Positions 8,029-51,236 of a DNA stretch of 64,000 nucleotides are shown piece after piece. The DNA is from Bacteroidales bacterium. GTDB taxonomy: Bacteria > Bacteroidota > Bacteroidia > Bacteroidales > UBA10428. The stretch lies in NCBI GenBank assembly GCA_016931575.1, contig JAFGEO010000045.1, positions 1 through 64,000 on the forward strand, in the 5' to 3' direction. Positions within the stretch are counted from its first letter, which is position 1. Every line of letters begins with the position of its first letter. The position numbers and the translations under genes are program-made. The notes beneath the pieces were generated by a model. That model saw nothing but the letters and a program-made list of their open reading frames with translations. It did not search any database and was not told the DNA's origin.

Positions 8029-11000
8029 TTACCGGATTATTATTAACCTGTTATTAATAACCGAAGTACCCAGGGGTGTAGTGACCTCCAACTGGTACGG
8101 GTAAATTCCCGGTCCGATCGCTGAGCCAAAGCTCCACTGTATTGGTTCGGAGACGTATCCGGTTTCATAGTGGGTATACTCTTTCCTGGCAATTAGCCTG
8201 CCCATAGGATCATATATTTTCAGTACAATTTCATGCTCCATTTCAGCGGAATTGTGCGTATAGATAAACTGCGTGAAATCAGCTGCCGGATTCGGATAAT
8301 TATAAGCTTTGTCCAGCACGAGCCCGCCATCCGTCATCACAACAAATCCTACGCTTGCTTCAGAGGAGTTATTATATACATCCCACACCTTCAGGATAAC
8401 ATAGTGATCACCCTCCCCAAGGCCACTCAGGGGGTAAGACACAATGCCCTGCGTATAGTCATCAGCGAGTGCCTCATAATGATCATTCAGAATAAACGGA
8501 TCAGCGTATTCACCGTCCAGTACGGCAACAATGTCGTGCCCTATTCCTGCACCCGTGGTATTAATGCCGTTATCGTCAAACAATTCTGCGTAGATCCTGG
8601 GACTCTCATTGGTCATGCCGCCGTCCTCAAAACGGTTATCATTTATATAGAGTGCTATCTCTGGTCCTAAATCATCCGGACTTGCCTGATTATCAGTGCC
8701 GCCAACATACACTTCGGTATATTCACCCATTGCATCGATTACGCCATTTTCAGCATAATAGCTGATTTTACCCATATCAACATTGTAAGCAATATCCTTG
8801 GGAACCACAAACGTGAATCGGAAACGGCCATTGCTTACGCTAGCCTTACCTTTATAAAGCAGGTTCTTTTGGTCCCAATAGGTATAACTTGGTTGTTCAT
8901 CATTCCCGAATGTTTTGATTTGTACAGCTTTATCGTATATCTGAGGATAAACATACCCGTTAAAATCATCCATGATGGTGCTATCGCTGTAGGCAACATA
9001 ACCGCTTATGCTTACTTCGCTAAAAGCTTTCAGGGTATCCGTTGCTTCGGCTACCGGCACCCCGTTGATACTGTCCGTACAGACCATATACCGGGGGTAG
9101 TTGAGTACCATGGCCGGATCCCCCAGGAGGGTAAAGTTCAATTTATTGATACTTCCGGTAGACATTTCATTTTTTGCTTTCATTATGGCCTCTCCCAGGG
9201 TACAGGGATTGCCCTCCTCATCACAGGCAAACAAATGGGAAAAGGTATTGCTGGCAAGTATGAAATTCTCGGTGGAACTGACAACCCGGGAAGTGCTGAG
9301 CAGCGCCACAGCGCCTCCATCCGGATTGAGGATGCCGGATTCGCCGGCCGAGGTCAGTGCTTCAATTTTGTAATCGTTATCTTCTTCAATTGCCACATGG
9401 TCATATCGGCTGAACTGACAGGTTGCTGTCACGAAGAGCGGCAGGACCGATTTATTTTTCATGGTTTGCATGTCGGACTTTTGAAGAATGATCTCCCCGG
9501 TAATCTGATTCTCACTGCCATGACCAAAGTAACAGAAGACCAGCAACCCCCTGTCAAAAAGATCCCTAAGTTCTTTATTCACATCAGGATAGGAATCGCC
9601 TGTGGCACTGCTGACCTGTGGGTAGGCATCCAGCAGTACTTTTTTAACATCAAAACCGGGGTAGGCGCTTAACACCTGATCTGCCAGTTCATTTGCATGC
9701 TTCATATGATATATCTCACCAGAGGCTCCTCCCGGGTCATACTGGTCATCCCCGACAACACATAATCTCCTTCGCCAGTCTTTATGATCGCTGGAATAGT
9801 ATCCCAGGATCTTGTTAACAACCCCTTTTGCCTCCGAATCGCTACCATCAACAGCAGCTACAGGAAGACGCCCCACACCGATATCCATTAACCCGGCGAC
9901 CTCCCCCTCATTATCATCGAGCATGCCAAAAAAATCATCAGAGGTATAGGACCTGGTACCAATGAGTGACTCCCCGGACTGGTAGGTCAGGACATAATTC
10001 GTATTGCCTTCTTTATAAAAATGGTTATTGAACGAACCATCGCCAAATAGAAGCACATAGTTGAGCCGGAAGTCTGAGTCACCCTTTTTATACTGGTGAC
10101 GAAAGAAATCCCTGATTGCAGAAATATCGGGGGTACCTGAGGAGAATTCATTGTAGATCTCCTGAGGATCCACAACCGATACGGTTAGTCCCCCTTCGTA
10201 CCGGTGAAAATCAGCCAGGCGTTCAGCCTGCCGGGCGAATACCGGGGGAGCAACAATAATATAGTTCGCTGGTGCGCTGCTTCTCAGATTCTGATTGGGA
10301 ACCTCTCCCACGCCTCTCTCATCCCTGCTGATCAGTGGTTTTGGAAAGTCGCCGTTAATATTTACAGCCAGGTATTGCCGCAGTGTATCGGCTGGCGCTT
10401 TAAAATTCAGCGCGCTTCCTGAAAGTTCACCCTTAAGGGAATGAACCTGGTTGATATTCGTTATGTCCCAAATTTTTATGGAAGAAGAGGCATTCTGCAG
10501 GGAAAACCGGGCGATATTTCCTTCGCCAACGGAATTTATATCCCTGAAATAGGTTTGATTGCCCGCTACTTTAAGTTCACTTCTGCCATTAAGGGTAATG
10601 TAGTCGATGTATGCTTCGTCTGTCTGATCAATCTTATCGTATGACACGCCCACATTGATCTGCGAACTACCTGCCACCAGTTTATCTTTAAAGTAGAGAT
10701 CCTGAGCATATTTACTGTAGCTGGGCGTCAGGTATACCGTAGGGAAAAGCTCTGATTGTTTTTGTACCCCGTCCACCCACAGGTAAACTCTTCTGGACCC
10801 GGCAGACCGCCCCGCAACTTTTGCCTCAAGCATGAAAGTATCCCCGGCAGAAAGATTGTTGAAGGTGAATGTAGTATCGAAATCATTAAGATCAATGCGT
10901 GAGGAATACCAGACCCTACCGGAGCCTATCAGGTTATATACTTCATGCTCATAGTAAACATATTCGTCGTATTCATTTACCTCAACCGTTGAATTCAGCG

Positions 11001-11913
11001 CGGAATAGTCGGTTTGTTGTATCCTGGCCCCCTCACCGTGGGAACTGGTGGCAAAATAAAAAATCGCCTGGGAATAGCCGTGTATTTTCTGCCTGAAGAA
11101 ATCGTCAGAGGCATCATAGTCCCAGGTCAGGGGCCCTTCCGCATAAAAGAGAATGTAATCACCCTCTCCGAAGGTGCCGTCACTGCCTTTATTCATATAT
11201 ACCGGGATCTCCTTCATATCAACCGGGCGGGGATCGCTGTTCCAGTAGCTGAGCTGCCTGCCTCCATGCCCAAACAGTCTGACATTTCCCGGGTTTGACA
11301 GGCCCATCTCAACCAGGTCGGCATAGCTTAGCCTATACACCCCGCTTTCCTTCACCTTGAATTTATACCAGTATCCGGATCCCAACAGGGAAGAATCATA
11401 GGACATTGCAGCTTTAGTCGTCTTGCCCTCAGTCTCCTCGGTCTTTTTGGATCCAATGCTAAAAGAGGCCAGTCTTTCCACCTTTCCCGTCAGAGGATTA
11501 ATGCGGATAGCCGGAATGTTTATATCCAGGGAATAATACTCACCTTTGGAACCAAAGCTATGAATAGCCGGGACGTCCGAAGGCAATACTTCAGGCAGTT
11601 GTACCTCGTTAAGCAGGGAATCGGGGACAGACTCGTACCGAAGATCCTTAATATAATAGAGCCTTTCAGGCTTCCCATTCAAACCGATGACATCCAGATA
11701 CCTGGGTACACCATTGGCATCATACTCAGCCCCCTCAAAGTGGAGAAACTGTTCTGTAATCCTTTTACCCTGATACTCATGAGTTTCAGAGATATTTCCT
11801 GTCCACTTGAGTCTGTAAACTCCCTCCTGTCCGTAAGTATAATACTTGAAGAAAGAAAAACCGGTAGCCAGCAAGATAATCAGGACTTTTTTTCTGATTG
11901 CAACACACTTCAT
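8029..11913 (-). CDS. porU: Type IX secretion sortase PorU (C25 peptidase family)
   Basis: 1294 residues with an N-terminal signal peptide ending near YYTYGQ. PorU is the outer-membrane gingipain-like (C25) protease that removes the C-terminal sorting domain of T9SS cargo and links it to anionic LPS. Catalytic residues are visible: His798 in FGHGSE and Cys832 in TATCQFSRYD, 34 residues apart as expected. The middle region IIVAPPVFARQAERLADFH followed by VVDPQEIYNEFSSG is typical. The C-terminal 90 residues (YNYPNPAADFT ... NNRLIIIR) resemble a type A sorting domain, as in known PorU proteins. Transcribed divergently from the PorP/SprF-like gene. Confidence 0.96.
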   Translation of the reverse strand: MKCVAIRKKVLIILLATGFSFFKYYTYGQEGVYRLKWTGNISETHEYQGKRITEQFLHFEGAEYDANGVPRYLDVIGLNGKPERLYYIKDLRYESVPDSLLNEVQLPEVLPSDVPAIHSFGSKGEYYSLDINIPAIRINPLTGKVERLASFSIGSKKTEETEGKTTKAAMSYDSSLLGSGYWYKFKVKESGVYRLSYADLVEMGLSNPGNVRLFGHGGRQLSYWNSDPRPVDMKEIPVYMNKGSDGTFGEGDYILFYAEGPLTWDYDASDDFFRQKIHGYSQAIFYFATSSHGEGARIQQTDYSALNSTVEVNEYDEYVYYEHEVYNLIGSGRVWYSSRIDLNDFDTTFTFNNLSAGDTFMLEAKVAGRSAGSRRVYLWVDGVQKQSELFPTVYLTPSYSKYAQDLYFKDKLVAGSSQINVGVSYDKIDQTDEAYIDYITLNGRSELKVAGNQTYFRDINSVGEGNIARFSLQNASSSIKIWDITNINQVHSLKGELSGSALNFKAPADTLRQYLAVNINGDFPKPLISRDERGVGEVPNQNLRSSAPANYIIVAPPVFARQAERLADFHRYEGGLTVSVVDPQEIYNEFSSGTPDISAIRDFFRHQYKKGDSDFRLNYVLLFGDGSFNNHFYKEGNTNYVLTYQSGESLIGTRSYTSDDFFGMLDDNEGEVAGLMDIGVGRLPVAAVDGSDSEAKGVVNKILGYYSSDHKDWRRRLCVVGDDQYDPGGASGEIYHMKHANELADQVLSAYPGFDVKKVLLDAYPQVSSATGDSYPDVNKELRDLFDRGLLVFCYFGHGSENQITGEIILQKSDMQTMKNKSVLPLFVTATCQFSRYDHVAIEEDNDYKIEALTSAGESGILNPDGGAVALLSTSRVVSSTENFILASNTFSHLFACDEEGNPCTLGEAIMKAKNEMSTGSINKLNFTLLGDPAMVLNYPRYMVCTDSINGVPVAEATDTLKAFSEVSISGYVAYSDSTIMDDFNGYVYPQIYDKAVQIKTFGNDEQPSYTYWDQKNLLYKGKASVSNGRFRFTFVVPKDIAYNVDMGKISYYAENGVIDAMGEYTEVYVGGTDNQASPDDLGPEIALYINDNRFEDGGMTNESPRIYAELFDDNGINTTGAGIGHDIVAVLDGEYADPFILNDHYEALADDYTQGIVSYPLSGLGEGDHYVILKVWDVYNNSSEASVGFVVMTDGGLVLDKAYNYPNPAADFTQFIYTHNSAEMEHEIVLKIYDPMGRLIARKEYTHYETGYVSEPIQWSFGSAIGPGIYPYQLEVTTPLGTSVINNRLIIIR

Positions 11914-27240: not shown

Positions 27241-30180
27241 TTACTTAATAATTACCTCGGCTTCTGTGGACTCGGCGCCGTTTACCAGCCGGAGCAGGTA
27301 GATGCCGGACTTGAGTTCCAGAGACAGGGTGAGGTTGGTTGCCGGGCTGGTGAGGTTCTCGCGAACTACTTCCTTACCTTCCAGGTTGAAGAGCACAAGA
27401 GAGGTGAAACCCTTTTCCCAGGACACCTGCAACTGATCATGTGCCGGATTCGGGAAGATGGTCAATCCCTGTTCGATCACTGTCTCAAGATTGTCAACTG
27501 CTGTAGATGCATTGTTAACCTGAGCATCCTCAAAGCCCAGCAGACTATTGCCATTTGTGGCTTTTACCGTACCGGGCTGGTAGCTTAGGCTAACTTCCTG
27601 TCCGGCATAGACCTTCTCTGTCAGATTGAATACAATCTTTGTGGAATCGACACCGTTTGCGGTTATGCTGCTGATTTCAGCGGGCTGTCCGTCTACCGAC
27701 AGGGTAAAAGCATCCTGGTTCAGGACGACATCTTCCAGCAGACCGTCAAATAGCGCAATGGCACGGGTTCCGGCTGAATTGATCTGGGAGCTTACCAGTT
27801 GCGGCCAGTAGTTTTTCACGGTAAGAACCGCTGATGACTGGCATGCAAATCCTTCGTCGTTTGTCAGGGTACCTCCGGTATATTGTATTCTTGGTGCATT
27901 GGCGCTGGTCAATGGTGTGGAGAAATGGAACACAGCCATGCTGGAATCTCCTTCCATGTAATCGAATTCATCAAAGCTAAGAGCCTCCCCATTATCCGTG
28001 AGGGTGAAAGAAGCTTCATTGTCGAGAAGTCCTCTGACAACATAGTTAAAGGATGCTTCAATGGTATACCCGTCGTTCGTAACTTCCGCACTGATGAGGC
28101 CTGTCGACAGGTTTATCACTTCCACAGGGCCGAAAGCCTTCGATTTTCCGCCATCCGTGGATGCCAGGCTTCCCGGGAAGTAAGAAACGCACAGGTAATC
28201 ATCGGGGGTGATAACACCCTGCAGGGTGACATGCACCAGGGAGCTGTCGGCCGCATCCGTTTTTATATCCTGGATGCGCATGGCATGGTCGGAGAAGAAT
28301 TTAAAATCTCCACCGATAATGGATTCATCCTGAATAGGTTTATCAAATGTGATCACCAGGCTGGAATCGCTGGTCTGAACAGCCGACACCACTTCAGGTC
28401 CCCTGATAACTGCATCGGTTTCATGCAGGATAAATACCGAGTCAGTATGAGCTTCAAGACAGGGAATGGTAAAGACTTTAACCATGTCGCCAAAGTTCAC
28501 CTCAACGGTATAGTCGCCGTAATACGCGTCAAACAGAACCGGGTTGGCATCCACCAGGGTGGTATCGAATTTCGTTGCCCAGTGTTCATTCAGCAGGTAG
28601 AAAAGGGTATCTGCAGCAAGTTTAGGCCGGCGGTTATCGTCAAAATAGCCGGAGTTCTCGCGCCATGCCCCGGCATCGCTCAGTGCCCAGCTGACAACTC
28701 CGTTCATCATCGGATGTGAGAAAGCAATGGTAAATACTTTCACGACATCCTCAGCCTGTTGCGCTTCCGTCAGCTCAGAACCATTGTCAAATTCTGTAAA
28801 TTTAATTGGCAGGCCGGCTTCAGCAACAATGTTAACATTGGTAACAAGCTCCGTAATATTCGGGCGCATTCCATCCCAGAAATGAGCCTGCATACCAACA
28901 CCGATTACGGGGCCACCCTCTTCCTTGATTTTCAGGACCAGGTCGCGGTATGCTGCGGCATCTCCCCAGTTGTATTCAACATTGTATTCGTTGATAAATA
29001 ATTCAGCATCGGGGTCAGCCTCCCGGGCCCATTTGAAGCAGTTCCAGTTTATTGAATCGCCGACAATATCAGAGAGGTAGGTGGCATGAAGGGGCTCGTT
29101 CATTACATCATATTCTTTGATGATCCCCTTATACCGGCTTACCTCACGGCTTACCCTCATCTTACAGGTATCCGTGATAGCCTCCGGAGTTGGCAGGTCT
29201 TTCACCCAGCGGGGCATTTCGTGATCGCCGGTATACTCATAGCCCCCCCAAAGCAGGGTATGTGCCCGAAGGTCCCAACCGATGCTCTGTGTCCAGCTGA
29301 CGGCATGTTCAAAATTGGTGTAATCCGGCTCAGTATGCTGTGGCTGAATGCCGCTCCATTTAAAGGAATTCCCGGACACTCCGTAGTTAAAATACTTCTG
29401 CATGGTCGCTTTCATCCATTGTTCCTCACTTGGAAATCGCGATGCATTCCCATCGAAGAAATCCTCATCGCTAAGGTAATCATGGCCATCGGAAGTGGTC
29501 AGTGCACCCCCGCCGCAGTTGATATATTCCACCCAGTCGCCTTCGACAGTACGGATCTCTATGCCTTTGATCGCAGCATTATCCAGACTGGCAACCATTT
29601 CCAGGTTGATCAGGGTATCCGCGGCAGTGATCGTAAAGCTGGTGTCGATGGCAATATTCCTGTCGCCGGCAACCGCTACCATGTCAAAATCGGAGAGCAC
29701 CTTGTCCCCTTCCACGAAAACATCAAATATCCTTGAGCCAGTGGTAGTGAAATAGATCTCGGCAAATTTCAGAGTCAGGATGTAATCACGGCCCTCCTCT
29801 ACGGGGATGGCGTAAGCAAGAAATGAATAGTACCGTTCAGACTGGTAAATTTCAGCATCGGCATCGGCAGTAATGGTATTGGTAGTAGAATAACGATTCC
29901 CGTTATTTACGGCCCCTTCGTACAGGTCAAAGGCAATACCGAATGGATATTCATGTTTGGTCAAGCGTACCGAGACATCCCCGGTAAAAGGCTGGTCATT
30001 CTTATCTATGATCACCAGACCGAAAGAACCCTTCCGAAGGGTGTCTATGCGTTCCTGGGCATGGTCGTACCATTCCTGGGCCGACTGGGCACTGAGCATG
30101 CTGAACATGCATAGCAGTCCAGTAACAGCTATAAAAAACTTTATCCCCGTATGTCCAGGGGTAGCATTCATTCTTCTCAT
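27241..30180 (-). CDS. Secreted GH10 endo-1,4-beta-xylanase with inserted malectin-like domain and T9SS sorting domain
   Basis: 979 residues. Signal peptide to about residue 31; GH10 start RKGSFGLVIIDKNDQPF at 49-65; then a malectin/CBM57-like block (about 105-247) inserted before the barrel, which resumes at YFNYGVSGNSFKWSGIQP. Catalytic residues: acid/base Glu362 in YDVMNEPLH and nucleophile Glu463 in IKFTEFDNGSE. Residues about 590-890 form three related Ig-like beta domains, and the last 80 (FPNPAHDQLQVSW ... GIYLLRLVNG ... AEVIIK) are a type A T9SS sorting domain, so the enzyme should be exported and surface-attached or released. It should cleave xylan backbones. No SusC/SusD genes are nearby, so it is not in a standard polysaccharide utilisation locus. 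Order inside the malectin block is unusual (see findings). Confidence 0.93.
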   Translation of the reverse strand: MRRMNATPGHTGIKFFIAVTGLLCMFSMLSAQSAQEWYDHAQERIDTLRKGSFGLVIIDKNDQPFTGDVSVRLTKHEYPFGIAFDLYEGAVNNGNRYSTTNTITADADAEIYQSERYYSFLAYAIPVEEGRDYILTLKFAEIYFTTTGSRIFDVFVEGDKVLSDFDMVAVAGDRNIAIDTSFTITAADTLINLEMVASLDNAAIKGIEIRTVEGDWVEYINCGGGALTTSDGHDYLSDEDFFDGNASRFPSEEQWMKATMQKYFNYGVSGNSFKWSGIQPQHTEPDYTNFEHAVSWTQSIGWDLRAHTLLWGGYEYTGDHEMPRWVKDLPTPEAITDTCKMRVSREVSRYKGIIKEYDVMNEPLHATYLSDIVGDSINWNCFKWAREADPDAELFINEYNVEYNWGDAAAYRDLVLKIKEEGGPVIGVGMQAHFWDGMRPNITELVTNVNIVAEAGLPIKFTEFDNGSELTEAQQAEDVVKVFTIAFSHPMMNGVVSWALSDAGAWRENSGYFDDNRRPKLAADTLFYLLNEHWATKFDTTLVDANPVLFDAYYGDYTVEVNFGDMVKVFTIPCLEAHTDSVFILHETDAVIRGPEVVSAVQTSDSSLVITFDKPIQDESIIGGDFKFFSDHAMRIQDIKTDAADSSLVHVTLQGVITPDDYLCVSYFPGSLASTDGGKSKAFGPVEVINLSTGLISAEVTNDGYTIEASFNYVVRGLLDNEASFTLTDNGEALSFDEFDYMEGDSSMAVFHFSTPLTSANAPRIQYTGGTLTNDEGFACQSSAVLTVKNYWPQLVSSQINSAGTRAIALFDGLLEDVVLNQDAFTLSVDGQPAEISSITANGVDSTKIVFNLTEKVYAGQEVSLSYQPGTVKATNGNSLLGFEDAQVNNASTAVDNLETVIEQGLTIFPNPAHDQLQVSWEKGFTSLVLFNLEGKEVVRENLTSPATNLTLSLELKSGIYLLRLVNGAESTEAEVIIK

Positions 30181-47435: not shown

Positions 47436-50400
47436 ATGAGGAAGGATCGATATACAACGCTAATTCTATTGTTACTCCTCCTTATTATCACGCCTGGATA
47501 TTCCCAGTCAGGCCATGTGCAAATAAGATCAGTCTCCTTTGAAGACGGGCTCTCCAATACAAATATTCAGTGCATTGTACAGGACAGTACAGGATTCATG
47601 TGGTTTGGATCATCCGATGGACTTAACCGGTATGATGGTTACGAAATTAAGACCTACTACCGTAAAGAAGGGGATAAAAACAGCCTTCTGTCCAGTAATA
47701 TCCGATCTCTTTTCGTCGATAAGGAAGGGCAGCTCTGGATAGGAACCTCAAAAGGCCTCTGCCGGTATGATCCTGCCCAAGATCATTTCATAGCAGTTCT
47801 GGCAGAAAATAACACCTCCCTGGGGGAATATGATATTGTAAATATCATGAATGACAACGATGGCTATTTATGGCTCTCCAGCTACAGGGTGGGACTTATC
47901 CGATACAAGCCCAGGGATGGTTCACTGACCCGGTACCGGCACGATCATCTGGATCCGACCAGTATAAGCAGCGATGTGGTTTACAGCAGCTTTCAGGACA
48001 GCCGGGGCAATATATGGGCTACCACTCACGATGGCGGGGTAAATCTGTACCATCCGGATAAGGGAAACTTTACACGCTACATGCACAACCCGGACGATCC
48101 CGAAAGCATCCTCGGTAATAATGTGCATGTTATGGCTGAAAGTCCTGACGGGAATTTATGGTTTGCCTGTAATTATGCCGGGCTCTCCACCCTCGCCATG
48201 GATAAAATCCCTGAGGGAAAATTTACAAACCTTACCCATACCGGTAATCCTGCCGGACTGATTAATAACAATACAAGGATCATTTGCGCAGCCAAAAAAG
48301 GAGGTTTATGGATAGGTACTGAGCTTGGCCAGCTGGAATATTACCAGGGGGGAACTTTTAATCACTATCAGATTAAAACCGACAATTCCCCGGGGATAGG
48401 TCTTTTTAATGCACTTTATGTTGACCGGGAAAACAATCTGTGGGTAGGAAGCAGTTATGCAGGAGTCTTCCTGGTCCACCACACATCCCGGGCTTTTAAG
48501 TCATTTGATACGAAGAATGGCCTTTCAAACAATGAGGTTTGGGAATTTGCCGAAGATCAGCAAGGCCTTATCTGGATTGCTACCGATGGCGGCGGACTTA
48601 ACTGTTTTAATCCTGAAAAAGAAAGGTTTACCATTTTTAATTCCCAGAATACAAATTTGGTCAATGATCATGTGCTCACCGTATTTGTCGACTCGGAAAA
48701 CCAGGTCTGGACAGGTTGCTGGGGCGGAGGGCTAAGCCTTTTTGACAGATCTACTGATCGTTTTCAGAACTTTAATGCAACAAATTCACAACTTTCAAGC
48801 AATAATGTTTTCGACATCACGGAAGATCAGGATGGGAATCTTTGGATTGCCACACAAAACGGATTAAACAAGTACTTAAAAAAGACAGGGGAATTCAGGG
48901 TATACACCAAGGATAACAGCGGCCTTCCTTTTAACCAGATTGAAGTCGTTGAAACCGACCTGCAAGGAAATATTCTGATCGGAAATGTAAATGGCCTGAT
49001 TATTTACAGCCCTTTCACTTCAGAGTGGAAAAGTTTTCACAGGCAAACCGGCAATGCATTTTCCCTTTCTAACGATTTTGTGACTTCGATCCTGGCAGAA
49101 GATTCATCAACACTTTGGGTTGCAACACACTTTGGGCTGAACAAACTGGACCGTCAAACCGGAAGGTTTAACAGGTTCTTTATGAAAGACGGGCTGCCCA
49201 GCGACATTATTTATGGCCTGGAAAAGGATGAGAATGGCGATTTCTGGATAAGCACCAACCGGGGACTGGTCCGCATGGATCCCTGGGCAAATGCTATTAA
49301 AACATTCGGTCCCTCTGATGGCCTTCAGGATTATATCTTCCTGAAAAAAAGCCACCTGCGCGCAAAGAATGGCCTCTTGTATTTCGGGGGAATCAACGGA
49401 TTCAATGTTGTCGATCCGACACAGGTCAGACACGAAACATTCAGTGCTCCCGTTATTTTTACTCAGTTAATGGTCAACCATAAACCGGTTTCTCCAAATG
49501 ATGAAACCGGAATTCTCCTCCAAACCCTCAACCAGACCGATCACATTACCCTAACCCACCGATATCAGAATTTCACCATCCAATTTTCTGCTCTGGAATA
49601 TACAAAAACCGATGCAGTGCAATATGCATACAAACTTGAAGGGTATGACAAGGAGTGGAATTATAACGGGAAACTACGATCAGCGACTTATACCAATCTG
49701 AATGAGGGAGACTACACGCTATTGGTAAAAAGCTTTGCGGATAGTCCGGGCGAAAATGGAAACACAATCTCCCTCAGGATAACCGTTCTCCCGCCCTGGT
49801 GGAAAACAATTCTTTTCAGGGTTCTGATCATTATTTTCCTTATCCTGTTGCTGGTTACCATCTACTTCCTGCGGGTCCGGAAATTCAGGATCCAAAAGCA
49901 GGCGCTGGAGAAAGAGGTCGGACTGCGAACCAATGAACTCCGCATCTCCAATGAAAAACTTCAGATAGAACAGGAAAAATTATGGCAGACAAACAGCATG
50001 CTGGAAGAAACTCAACATGAAATCCTGACCCAGAAAGAGGAACTTGAAAACCACAGGAACCACCTGGAAAGCCTCATCACAGAAAGAACCGCTGAGCTAC
50101 TGGCGGCCAAGGAAAAAGCCGAAGAATCTGACCGGTTAAAAACTGCATTTCTGGCAAATCTTTCGCATGAGATCCGTACCCCGCTGAATGCTATCACCGG
50201 CTTTTCTTCCCTGCTTGCCACGACTGAACTGACCAGAGAGGAAAAAAAGAAATTCATTGAAATGATCATCAGCAACTCTGATTCATTGACCTTACTGATA
50301 AATGATATCATTGATATCTCACTTATTGAATCAAAACAGCTTAAACTAAACAATGAACCCTTTGATGTCAATCTAATTATTGAAGAACTCCTGGATCACT

Positions 50401-51236
50401 ACAGTTCTTTAAATACGAAAGAAATTCAATTCCTCTTCGAGAAAAAAAGTAAGGAGCGTGAAATGATTATTATGGGCGATCATGCCCGGTTTAAACAGAC
50501 CCTGAACAACCTGATAGGAAATGCCTGCAAGTATACAGACAAGGGTAGTATCCGTATAGGTTATGAATCAAATGAAAAAGAAATTCGCTTTTATGTCTCC
50601 GATACGGGAATCGGCATACAACCTTCCGATCAGCAATCGATTTTCAGTCGTTTTCACAAGCTGGATACATCACAGGAAAAAATCTATCGCGGGGTGGGTA
50701 TCGGCTTGACGATCTGCAGCCACCTGATAGAATTAATGAAGGGCAAGATCTGGGTTGAATCAGTTCCCGGTGAAGGTTCTACATTCATTTTCACTCTGCC
50801 AACTCCCCTGAATAAACCGGTACAAGTACCTGATAGTGACAGGAGCAGCAATTCCCCGGATCTGAGCAGCTACACCATTCTTGTTGCTGAAGACGACTCC
50901 ACCAATTACATTCTTATAGAGAAATTCCTTAAGGACACCCGCGCCAGGGTGATTTGGGCAAAAAATGGTCAGGAAGCGGTTGAAGAAGTGAAAAACTTCA
51001 GGGACAGGGATAGGTTAATCATACTGATGGATATTAAAATGCCCGTGATGAATGGATTTGAAGCATTACGACAGATCCGTAACAAGTTCAAGACAATTCC
51101 AATAGTTGCGGTTACAGCTTATGCCCAGGAGAAAGACCGCCTCGAGATATTAAAAAACAATTTCGATGGATATGTTACAAAACCCATCATGCGTAAAATA
51201 CTCCTGGAAACCATTCGAAAGGCGATCGAAAAATAA
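47436..51236 (+). CDS. Propeller-type hybrid two-component sensor without DNA-binding domain
   Basis: 1266 residues. Signal peptide (LILLLLLLIITPGYSQ), then about 14 two-component-regulator-propeller repeats (WFGSSDGLNRYDG, LWIGTSKGLCRYD and similar) forming two seven-bladed propellers, a Y_Y_Y domain (about 705-785), one membrane span (FRVLIIIFLILLLVTIYFL), a coiled coil, HisKA with His911 in [10 protein letters not shown], HATPase (IGNACKYTD, DTGIGI) and a receiver with Asp1199 in ILMDIKMP. Classic HTCS proteins of Bacteroidota carry an AraC domain after the receiver and sense polysaccharide fragments; here the protein stops after the receiver, so the output must go through another protein or be lost. 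No glycan locus is next to it. Confidence 0.94.
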   Translation: MRKDRYTTLILLLLLLIITPGYSQSGHVQIRSVSFEDGLSNTNIQCIVQDSTGFMWFGSSDGLNRYDGYEIKTYYRKEGDKNSLLSSNIRSLFVDKEGQLWIGTSKGLCRYDPAQDHFIAVLAENNTSLGEYDIVNIMNDNDGYLWLSSYRVGLIRYKPRDGSLTRYRHDHLDPTSISSDVVYSSFQDSRGNIWATTHDGGVNLYHPDKGNFTRYMHNPDDPESILGNNVHVMAESPDGNLWFACNYAGLSTLAMDKIPEGKFTNLTHTGNPAGLINNNTRIICAAKKGGLWIGTELGQLEYYQGGTFNHYQIKTDNSPGIGLFNALYVDRENNLWVGSSYAGVFLVHHTSRAFKSFDTKNGLSNNEVWEFAEDQQGLIWIATDGGGLNCFNPEKERFTIFNSQNTNLVNDHVLTVFVDSENQVWTGCWGGGLSLFDRSTDRFQNFNATNSQLSSNNVFDITEDQDGNLWIATQNGLNKYLKKTGEFRVYTKDNSGLPFNQIEVVETDLQGNILIGNVNGLIIYSPFTSEWKSFHRQTGNAFSLSNDFVTSILAEDSSTLWVATHFGLNKLDRQTGRFNRFFMKDGLPSDIIYGLEKDENGDFWISTNRGLVRMDPWANAIKTFGPSDGLQDYIFLKKSHLRAKNGLLYFGGINGFNVVDPTQVRHETFSAPVIFTQLMVNHKPVSPNDETGILLQTLNQTDHITLTHRYQNFTIQFSALEYTKTDAVQYAYKLEGYDKEWNYNGKLRSATYTNLNEGDYTLLVKSFADSPGENGNTISLRITVLPPWWKTILFRVLIIIFLILLLVTIYFLRVRKFRIQKQALEKEVGLRTNELRISNEKLQIEQEKLWQTNSMLEETQHEILTQKEELENHRNHLESLITERTAELLAAKEKAEESDRLKTAFLANLSHEIRTPLNAITGFSSLLATTELTREEKKKFIEMIISNSDSLTLLINDIIDISLIESKQLKLNNEPFDVNLIIEELLDHYSSLNTKEIQFLFEKKSKEREMIIMGDHARFKQTLNNLIGNACKYTDKGSIRIGYESNEKEIRFYVSDTGIGIQPSDQQSIFSRFHKLDTSQEKIYRGVGIGLTICSHLIELMKGKIWVESVPGEGSTFIFTLPTPLNKPVQVPDSDRSSNSPDLSSYTILVAEDDSTNYILIEKFLKDTRARVIWAKNGQEAVEEVKNFRDRDRLIILMDIKMPVMNGFEALRQIRNKFKTIPIVAVTAYAQEKDRLEILKNNFDGYVTKPIMRKILLETIRKAIEK

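Follow-up and report, generated by a model that had tools for sequence, protein, structure and literature searches.

The locus described here raises the question of whether a malectin-like domain whose first segment appears to stand last, and which lies inside a glycoside hydrolase of family 10 (GH10), is genuinely circularly permuted, and of how such an arrangement may have come about. Within the window, by which we mean the entire analysed stretch of 64,000 nucleotides, the open reading frame in question occupies positions 27241 to 30180 on the reverse strand. As assigned from its translation by means of Pfam and NCBIfam, it encodes a GH10 protein of 979 amino acids which harbours the permuted malectin insert, a C-terminal SWM-type repeat and a type A sorting tail of the type IX secretion system (T9SS). 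Pfam recognises GH10 (PF00331) at residues 255 to 524 (154.4 bits compared to a cut-off of 22.1) and Malectin (PF11721) at residues 96 to 194 (89.0 bits compared to a cut-off of 23), the latter match covering positions 40 to 138 only of the 163 profile positions. Both GH10 catalytic glutamates are present, Glu362 within the NEP motif (DVMNEP) and Glu463 within the TE.D motif (FTEFD); as in GH10 enzymes generally, they presumably act as the acid/base and the nucleophile, respectively. The N-terminus, as judged by eye, resembles a signal peptide, while the sorting tail at residues 908 to 978 (positions 27247 to 27459, reverse strand) is matched by PF18962 and TIGR04183. The protein is read as a secreted GH10 enzyme, most likely an endo-xylanase, and it is the C-terminal tail which suggests export through the type IX system. 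Elsewhere in the window (positions 8029 to 11913, reverse strand) a Peptidase C25 protein of 1294 amino acids is encoded which is possibly a PorU-type sortase of this system and, if so, might process the tail of the xylanase.

As put forward in the earlier note, the blocks of the malectin domain follow each other in the order IYQSERY, AIPVEEG, LKFAEIYF, IFDVFVEG, DFDMVAVAG and GIEIRTVEG, and only behind these does YINCGG appear, an order with which the translation agrees. YINCGG corresponds to residues 219 to 224 within GALTTSDGHDYLSD, so that the first malectin segment (YINCGGGALTTSDGHDYLSDEDFF) comes last in the malectin domain of residues 86 to 244. The core, i.e. the canonical second part which here stands first, comprises residues 86 to 209 (positions 29554 to 29925, reverse strand), as seen from the Pfam match and from the VIA-align alignment with human malectin. 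The relocated first segment VEYINCGGGALTTSDGHDYLSDEDFFDG, assigned by profile tests and AlphaFold, spans residues 217 to 244 (positions 29449 to 29532, reverse strand). While the internal position of the domain had been proposed correctly (about residues 105 to 247), its start had not, since the insert extends from residue 86 to about residue 244 (about 29449 to 29925 of the window).

Several profile comparisons bear on the order of these segments. Isolated from the barrel, the insert scores 95.0 bits against Pfam Malectin as found (profile positions 41 to 139) and 104.4 bits when re-ordered (positions 5 to 139). For the wider family, whose counts refer to 20 members and leave out the loci L033 and L034, we used a canonical reference profile of 24 Bacteroidota malectin domains from 30 loci searched, into which a domain was admitted only if it fitted a regular expression. 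All 20 members, once re-ordered, cover this profile end to end (from positions 2 to 4 up to positions 147 to 150 of 169) and score 12.3 to 17.6 bits more than the core does by itself. Doubled sequences reach a median of 114.3 bits compared to 99.8 bits as found, and in the doubled window sequence the match crosses the junction, extending from position 4 to 149. Throughout, the INAGG-type segment is situated C-terminally of the core (20 of 20 members); the canonical order with this segment in front is found in none. Compared with the solved malectin 2jwp, the family profile aligns in two swapped pieces, profile positions 131 to 154 corresponding to 5 to 28 and positions 22 to 109 to 51 to 138. 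The core piece is strongly matched by solved malectins (65.4 bits) while the relocated piece is matched very weakly (-1.1 bits; 6.7 bits for 9hhu), for which reason the statistical weight is carried by the canonical profile of bacterial malectins and by the conservation seen within the family rather than by the match to vertebrate malectins.

The same data bear on the notion that we are dealing with a truncated malectin which has lost its first strand and is followed by an unrelated linker resembling INAGG by chance. Pfam alone indeed returns just the core, and taken by itself the relocated segment scores near zero bits against vertebrate malectins. Against the canonical bacterial profile, however, this segment by itself achieves 12.7 to 17.9 bits in all 20 members, and none of 4000 shuffled segments reaches the re-ordered score. 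Moreover, I-N-C-G-G together with one threonine, one glycine and one tyrosine is invariant in 20 of 20 members, and the segment is predicted to form confident strands within the isolated domain (residues 217 to 221, VEYIN, running into CGG, and residues 234 to 237). On these grounds we rejected truncation combined with chance similarity as highly improbable.

The AlphaFold model of residues 37 to 538 exhibits a mean pLDDT of 87.7 and a pTM of 0.71, the latter leaving the relative placement of the domains unsure. Its predicted barrel aligns with the GH10 structure 7d89 (Z 37.4, rmsd 3.8, 321 residues aligned over model residues 1 to 502) with the insert being skipped, and both the fold search and the alignment performed with the whole model return GH10-type folds throughout the best 50 entries of each. 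Predicted on its own (residues 85 to 248), the insert attains a pLDDT of 91.9 and a pTM of 0.88 and adopts a malectin β-sandwich. Using VIA-align, it aligns with human malectin (9ikp) with Z 12.3 and rmsd 3.1 over 128 residues (model residues 6 to 134 on chain residues 32 to 178) and with ANXUR1 (5y96) with Z 13.8 and rmsd 2.1 over 126 residues (model residues 7 to 132). Among the best 16 of 50 entries, which are malectins, plant malectin-like receptors and GH2 glucuronidases, no alignment proceeds beyond model residue 134 of 164. Hence, the relocated segment of the insert and the N-terminal strand of malectin both stay unaligned, as a permutation predicts for alignments which, like those of VIA-align, are sequential and whose reach ends short of a spatial coincidence of the relocated strand with malectin strand 1. 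The structure prediction proposed at the outset thus yielded a malectin-type fold which is complete and whose ends are shifted. In five of the 50 entries (the CBM35 structures 2w3j, 2w46 and 2w87 and two entries of one peptidase; Z 6.7 to 7.6) insert residues 8 to 161 of the model are involved, the alignment continuing through the relocated strand to model residues 159 to 161. Other sandwich families may therefore carry a strand at this place in the order of the insert, and the permuted malectin is perhaps similar to a CBM35-like strand order.

As to the origin of the inserted unit, the simplest source would be a slice of a tandem malectin array comprising the core of one copy and the first segment of the next, since such a slice would provide the observed order in one step and without separate joining of ends. 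Alternatively, a single domain may have been opened at a loop and its native ends joined. Tandem malectins do occur in the phylum (L037, L040 and L044), the copies in L044 lying, by eye, about 12 residues apart, and in the GH10 family core and relocated segment are separated by 10 residues in 15 of 15 members measured (the pattern used missed five of the 20). The genome from which the window originates offers no malectin donor, as the GH10 protein gives its sole Malectin match in a Pfam search of the whole genome, which contains four GH10 matches. The existence of tandem arrays, which makes a slice a natural origin, also speaks for a variant in which the core is followed by the first segment of a second, otherwise lost malectin whose INCGG strand pairs between molecules by domain swapping. 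As a slice origin is equally compatible with a circular permutation, this variant differs solely in the inter-molecular pairing, and since the single-chain model is confident without any partner we consider it improbable.

The site of insertion becomes apparent from a comparison with three relatives devoid of the insert (L007, L071 and L006), which belong to the same GH10 subfamily and share the same type of start (WYDEAEERIDTLRKG...). L006 and L007 stem from the same genus as the genome of the window. In all three, strand β1 leads directly to helix α1; core and relocated segment are both absent, and the barrel is otherwise intact. In the window protein the end of β1, FGIAFD (residues 80 to 85; positions 29926 to 29943, reverse strand), as located by residue numbering, by alignment with the insert-free relatives and by GH10 sequence and structure alignments, directly precedes the insert. 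Behind the relocated segment the barrel restarts with WMKATMQKYFN (residues 255 to 265), and its remainder, identified by PF00331 and the positions of the catalytic motifs, extends over residues 254 to 538 (positions 28567 to 29421, reverse strand). The suspected insertion within GH10 can accordingly be placed in the β1-α1 loop. That the INCGG segment might belong to the xylanase barrel instead is suggested by its immediate vicinity to the resuming barrel sequence, but it is contradicted by the insert-free relatives, which lack the segment, by the alignment of the barrel with GH10 structures, in which the insert is left out, and by the model of the isolated insert, which is predicted to fold with the segment included. 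We regard such a membership as vanishingly improbable and have discarded it.

In a tree of the barrels, from which L072 and L073 were excluded by a motif filter and in which L006 is present as its C-terminal part only, the 20 insert-bearing sequences make up one side of a branch. The malectins of the insert-bearing GH10 proteins form one clade (100/100). With the barrel branch being moderately supported (82/76), the sequences suggest a single gain of the insert within this line of GH10 proteins. A scan of genome contigs with two peptide patterns of the permuted family, which other forms could escape, revealed no malectin in canonical order at the GH10 site. Sequence comparison and structure prediction together establish the permuted order, the homology to canonical malectin, the intact surrounding barrel and the conservation across the family. 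On the strength of profile tests, predicted fold, insertion and conserved family, the protein is very probably a GH10 enzyme with a malectin/CBM57-type domain which is circularly permuted at the loop following its first segment and inserted between β1 and α1, in agreement with the permutation and the insertion surmised at the outset.

GH10 proteins with the same order, a search for which had been suggested, do form a family. Of 70 stretches obtained in the scan of genome contigs 21 were confirmed, two of which (L033 and L034) are apparently fragments of one gene, while the other 19, all loci additional to the window, span the whole query of 265 residues in line. These derive mostly from Prolixibacteraceae and allies; judged by their titles, the carriers are Prolixibacteraceae including Draconibacterium, Natronoflexus and Alkalitalea as well as metagenome-assembled genomes labelled Bacteroidales, Paludibacter, Bacteroides, Sphingobacteriia and Bacteroidota. 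An assembly artefact was ruled out, since 19 other loci are collinear with the entire query, and four of these belong to named strains (Draconibacterium sediminis, Draconibacterium mangrovi, Natronoflexus pectinivorans and Alkalitalea saponilacus). At the family level, matches to the whole query are found in two of 23 genomes sampled, plus one divided between two contigs. Five of 393 genomes sampled at the level of the order match nearly the entire query, the window's own among them. At the level of the phylum some match is present in 36 of 395 genomes, the query being spanned solely in the window's own. The acid/base motif NEP is retained in 19 of 20 sequences. In one insert-bearing sequence (L021, 781 to 2286) the acid/base glutamate reads as alanine (INAPL for INEPL), by true variation or possibly through a sequencing error. 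A collection of viral sequences yielded one relative, a protein with a malectin domain and a length of about 390 amino acids on the IMG/VR contig L014, in which the order, by eye, is apparently canonical.

The same order was encountered in a second host. In GH2-like proteins from other Bacteroidota families (L042, L045 and L049) the malectin core is followed by VNCGG or INCGG, with no such motif preceding it, and the domain is flanked on either side by one half of a C-terminal region to which Pfam assigns no name. This arrangement was observed in at least three of 395 genomes of the phylum (eight loci read by eye), and in one of 1500 shuffles the re-ordered score of the GH2-like set is attained. 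The host itself gives a single Pfam hint, a sub-threshold match to the GH2 barrel (18.7 bits compared to a cut-off of 21). With NCBIfam NF049877 (BT0996-type enzymes) the window protein reaches 24.7 bits, far below the cut-off, and the GH2-like set aligns at profile positions 1112 to 1235 of 1400. A search for a GH2-like host free of the insert revealed none, the two matching genomes of 198 both being known carriers. By eye, the permuted malectins of both hosts are opened at the same loop. In the malectin tree the GH10 and GH2-like sets form separate clades (100/100 and 100/98), the AU test giving p 0.483 for their union. It is conceivable, though we put it at somewhat below an even chance, that the permuted malectin, opened at about the same loop, represents a plug-in form which has been reused as an internal module in the GH10 β1/α1 loop and in the C-terminal domain of L042, L045 and L049. 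If so, permutation would be the step rendering a terminal lectin domain insertable, and tandem malectin arrays would constitute the supply.

A circular permutation between two families of carbohydrate-binding modules (CBMs), CBM36 and CBM60, was reportedly described by Montanier et al. in 2010; it would likewise be a natural permutation among such modules, in families other than malectin. The window protein shares sequence profile, predicted fold and proposed sugar-contact positions with malectin (PF11721)/CBM57, yet it differs in its segment order and in the location of the domain within a catalytic barrel. Internal CBMs as such are described for GH10, GH5, GH13, GH26 and GH148 in three reports (PMC13357471, PMC9063844, PMC7848910). 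The closest of these in host is the Xyn10C-like GH10 Pm25 with its internal CBM4 pair, also a Bacteroidota GH10 interrupted by binding modules and preceded in its locus by a TonB receptor/SusD pair (PMC7848910); directly upstream of the permuted GH10 such a pair is present in two of five loci examined (L015 and L032). In the Xyn10C-like enzymes, however, CBM4 (in relatives CBM22 or an unclassified module) resides in the β3/α3 loop, whereas the window protein carries no CBM4 there but a permuted malectin after β1 and before α1 (PMC7848910). GH5 MtGlu5 with a CBM29-like domain and a GH26 with CBM112 likewise contain a β-sandwich CBM within the catalytic domain but represent other CBM and GH families, and the string "permut" is absent from the main text of both papers (PMC9063844, PMC13357471). 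Among the open-licence PubMed Central papers listed, no title or abstract opening mentions a permuted malectin. Inserted CBMs and permuted CBMs are already known; what appears new, as far as these listings show, is a permuted malectin. With pre-insertion relatives, post-insertion family, canonical domain and tandem copies all at hand in one natural case, the role of permutation in domain insertion becomes testable by swapping the order. For xylan enzymes the β1/α1 loop is marked out as a site for an inserted module, and profile searches should be read with the caveat that they display the permuted domain as a truncated malectin.

With respect to function, the residues of Xenopus malectin proposed for sugar contact are Tyr67, Tyr89, Tyr116, Phe117 and Asp186 (PMC7783096). 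All have counterparts in the window malectin, Tyr97, Tyr117, Tyr143 and Phe144 by alignment and Asp200 by motif only. Across the 20 members, position 97 is Tyr or Phe in 20, position 117 Trp or Tyr in 20, position 143 Tyr, Phe or Trp in 19 and Val in one, position 144 (Xenopus Phe117) Phe in 13, His in six and Met in one, and position 200 Asp in 19. The permutation would place both termini of the domain side by side at a single loop and could thereby allow its accommodation on the barrel's catalytic face. From the barrel fold, a module in the β1/α1 loop should be near the substrate cleft, where the conserved aromatics might bind glycan and thereby keep xylan or attached chains in place for cleavage. 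A role of the insert as a carbohydrate-binding module beside the cleft is suggested by its likeness to the inserted CBM of MtGlu5 and to the CBM4 pair of Pm25. In MtGlu5, deletion of the CBM29-like domain lowers catalytic efficiency (PMC9063844). The GH26 enzyme showed the same activity after removal of CBM112 (PMC13357471), and the malectin-like domains of plant ANX1 bound none of the sugars tried (PMC6038381), both of which speak against a simple targeting role. The gene context was inspected for five of 19 loci and for part of the open reading frames in each. Glycosidase genes (GH43-CBM6, GH3, GH97, GH127, GH5 or GH31) are present nearby in all five, and the window has none among ten proteins examined. 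At positions 47436 to 51236 of its forward strand the window encodes a hybrid two-component system regulator (Reg_prop, HisKA, Response_reg), and regulators of this type frequently control polysaccharide loci.
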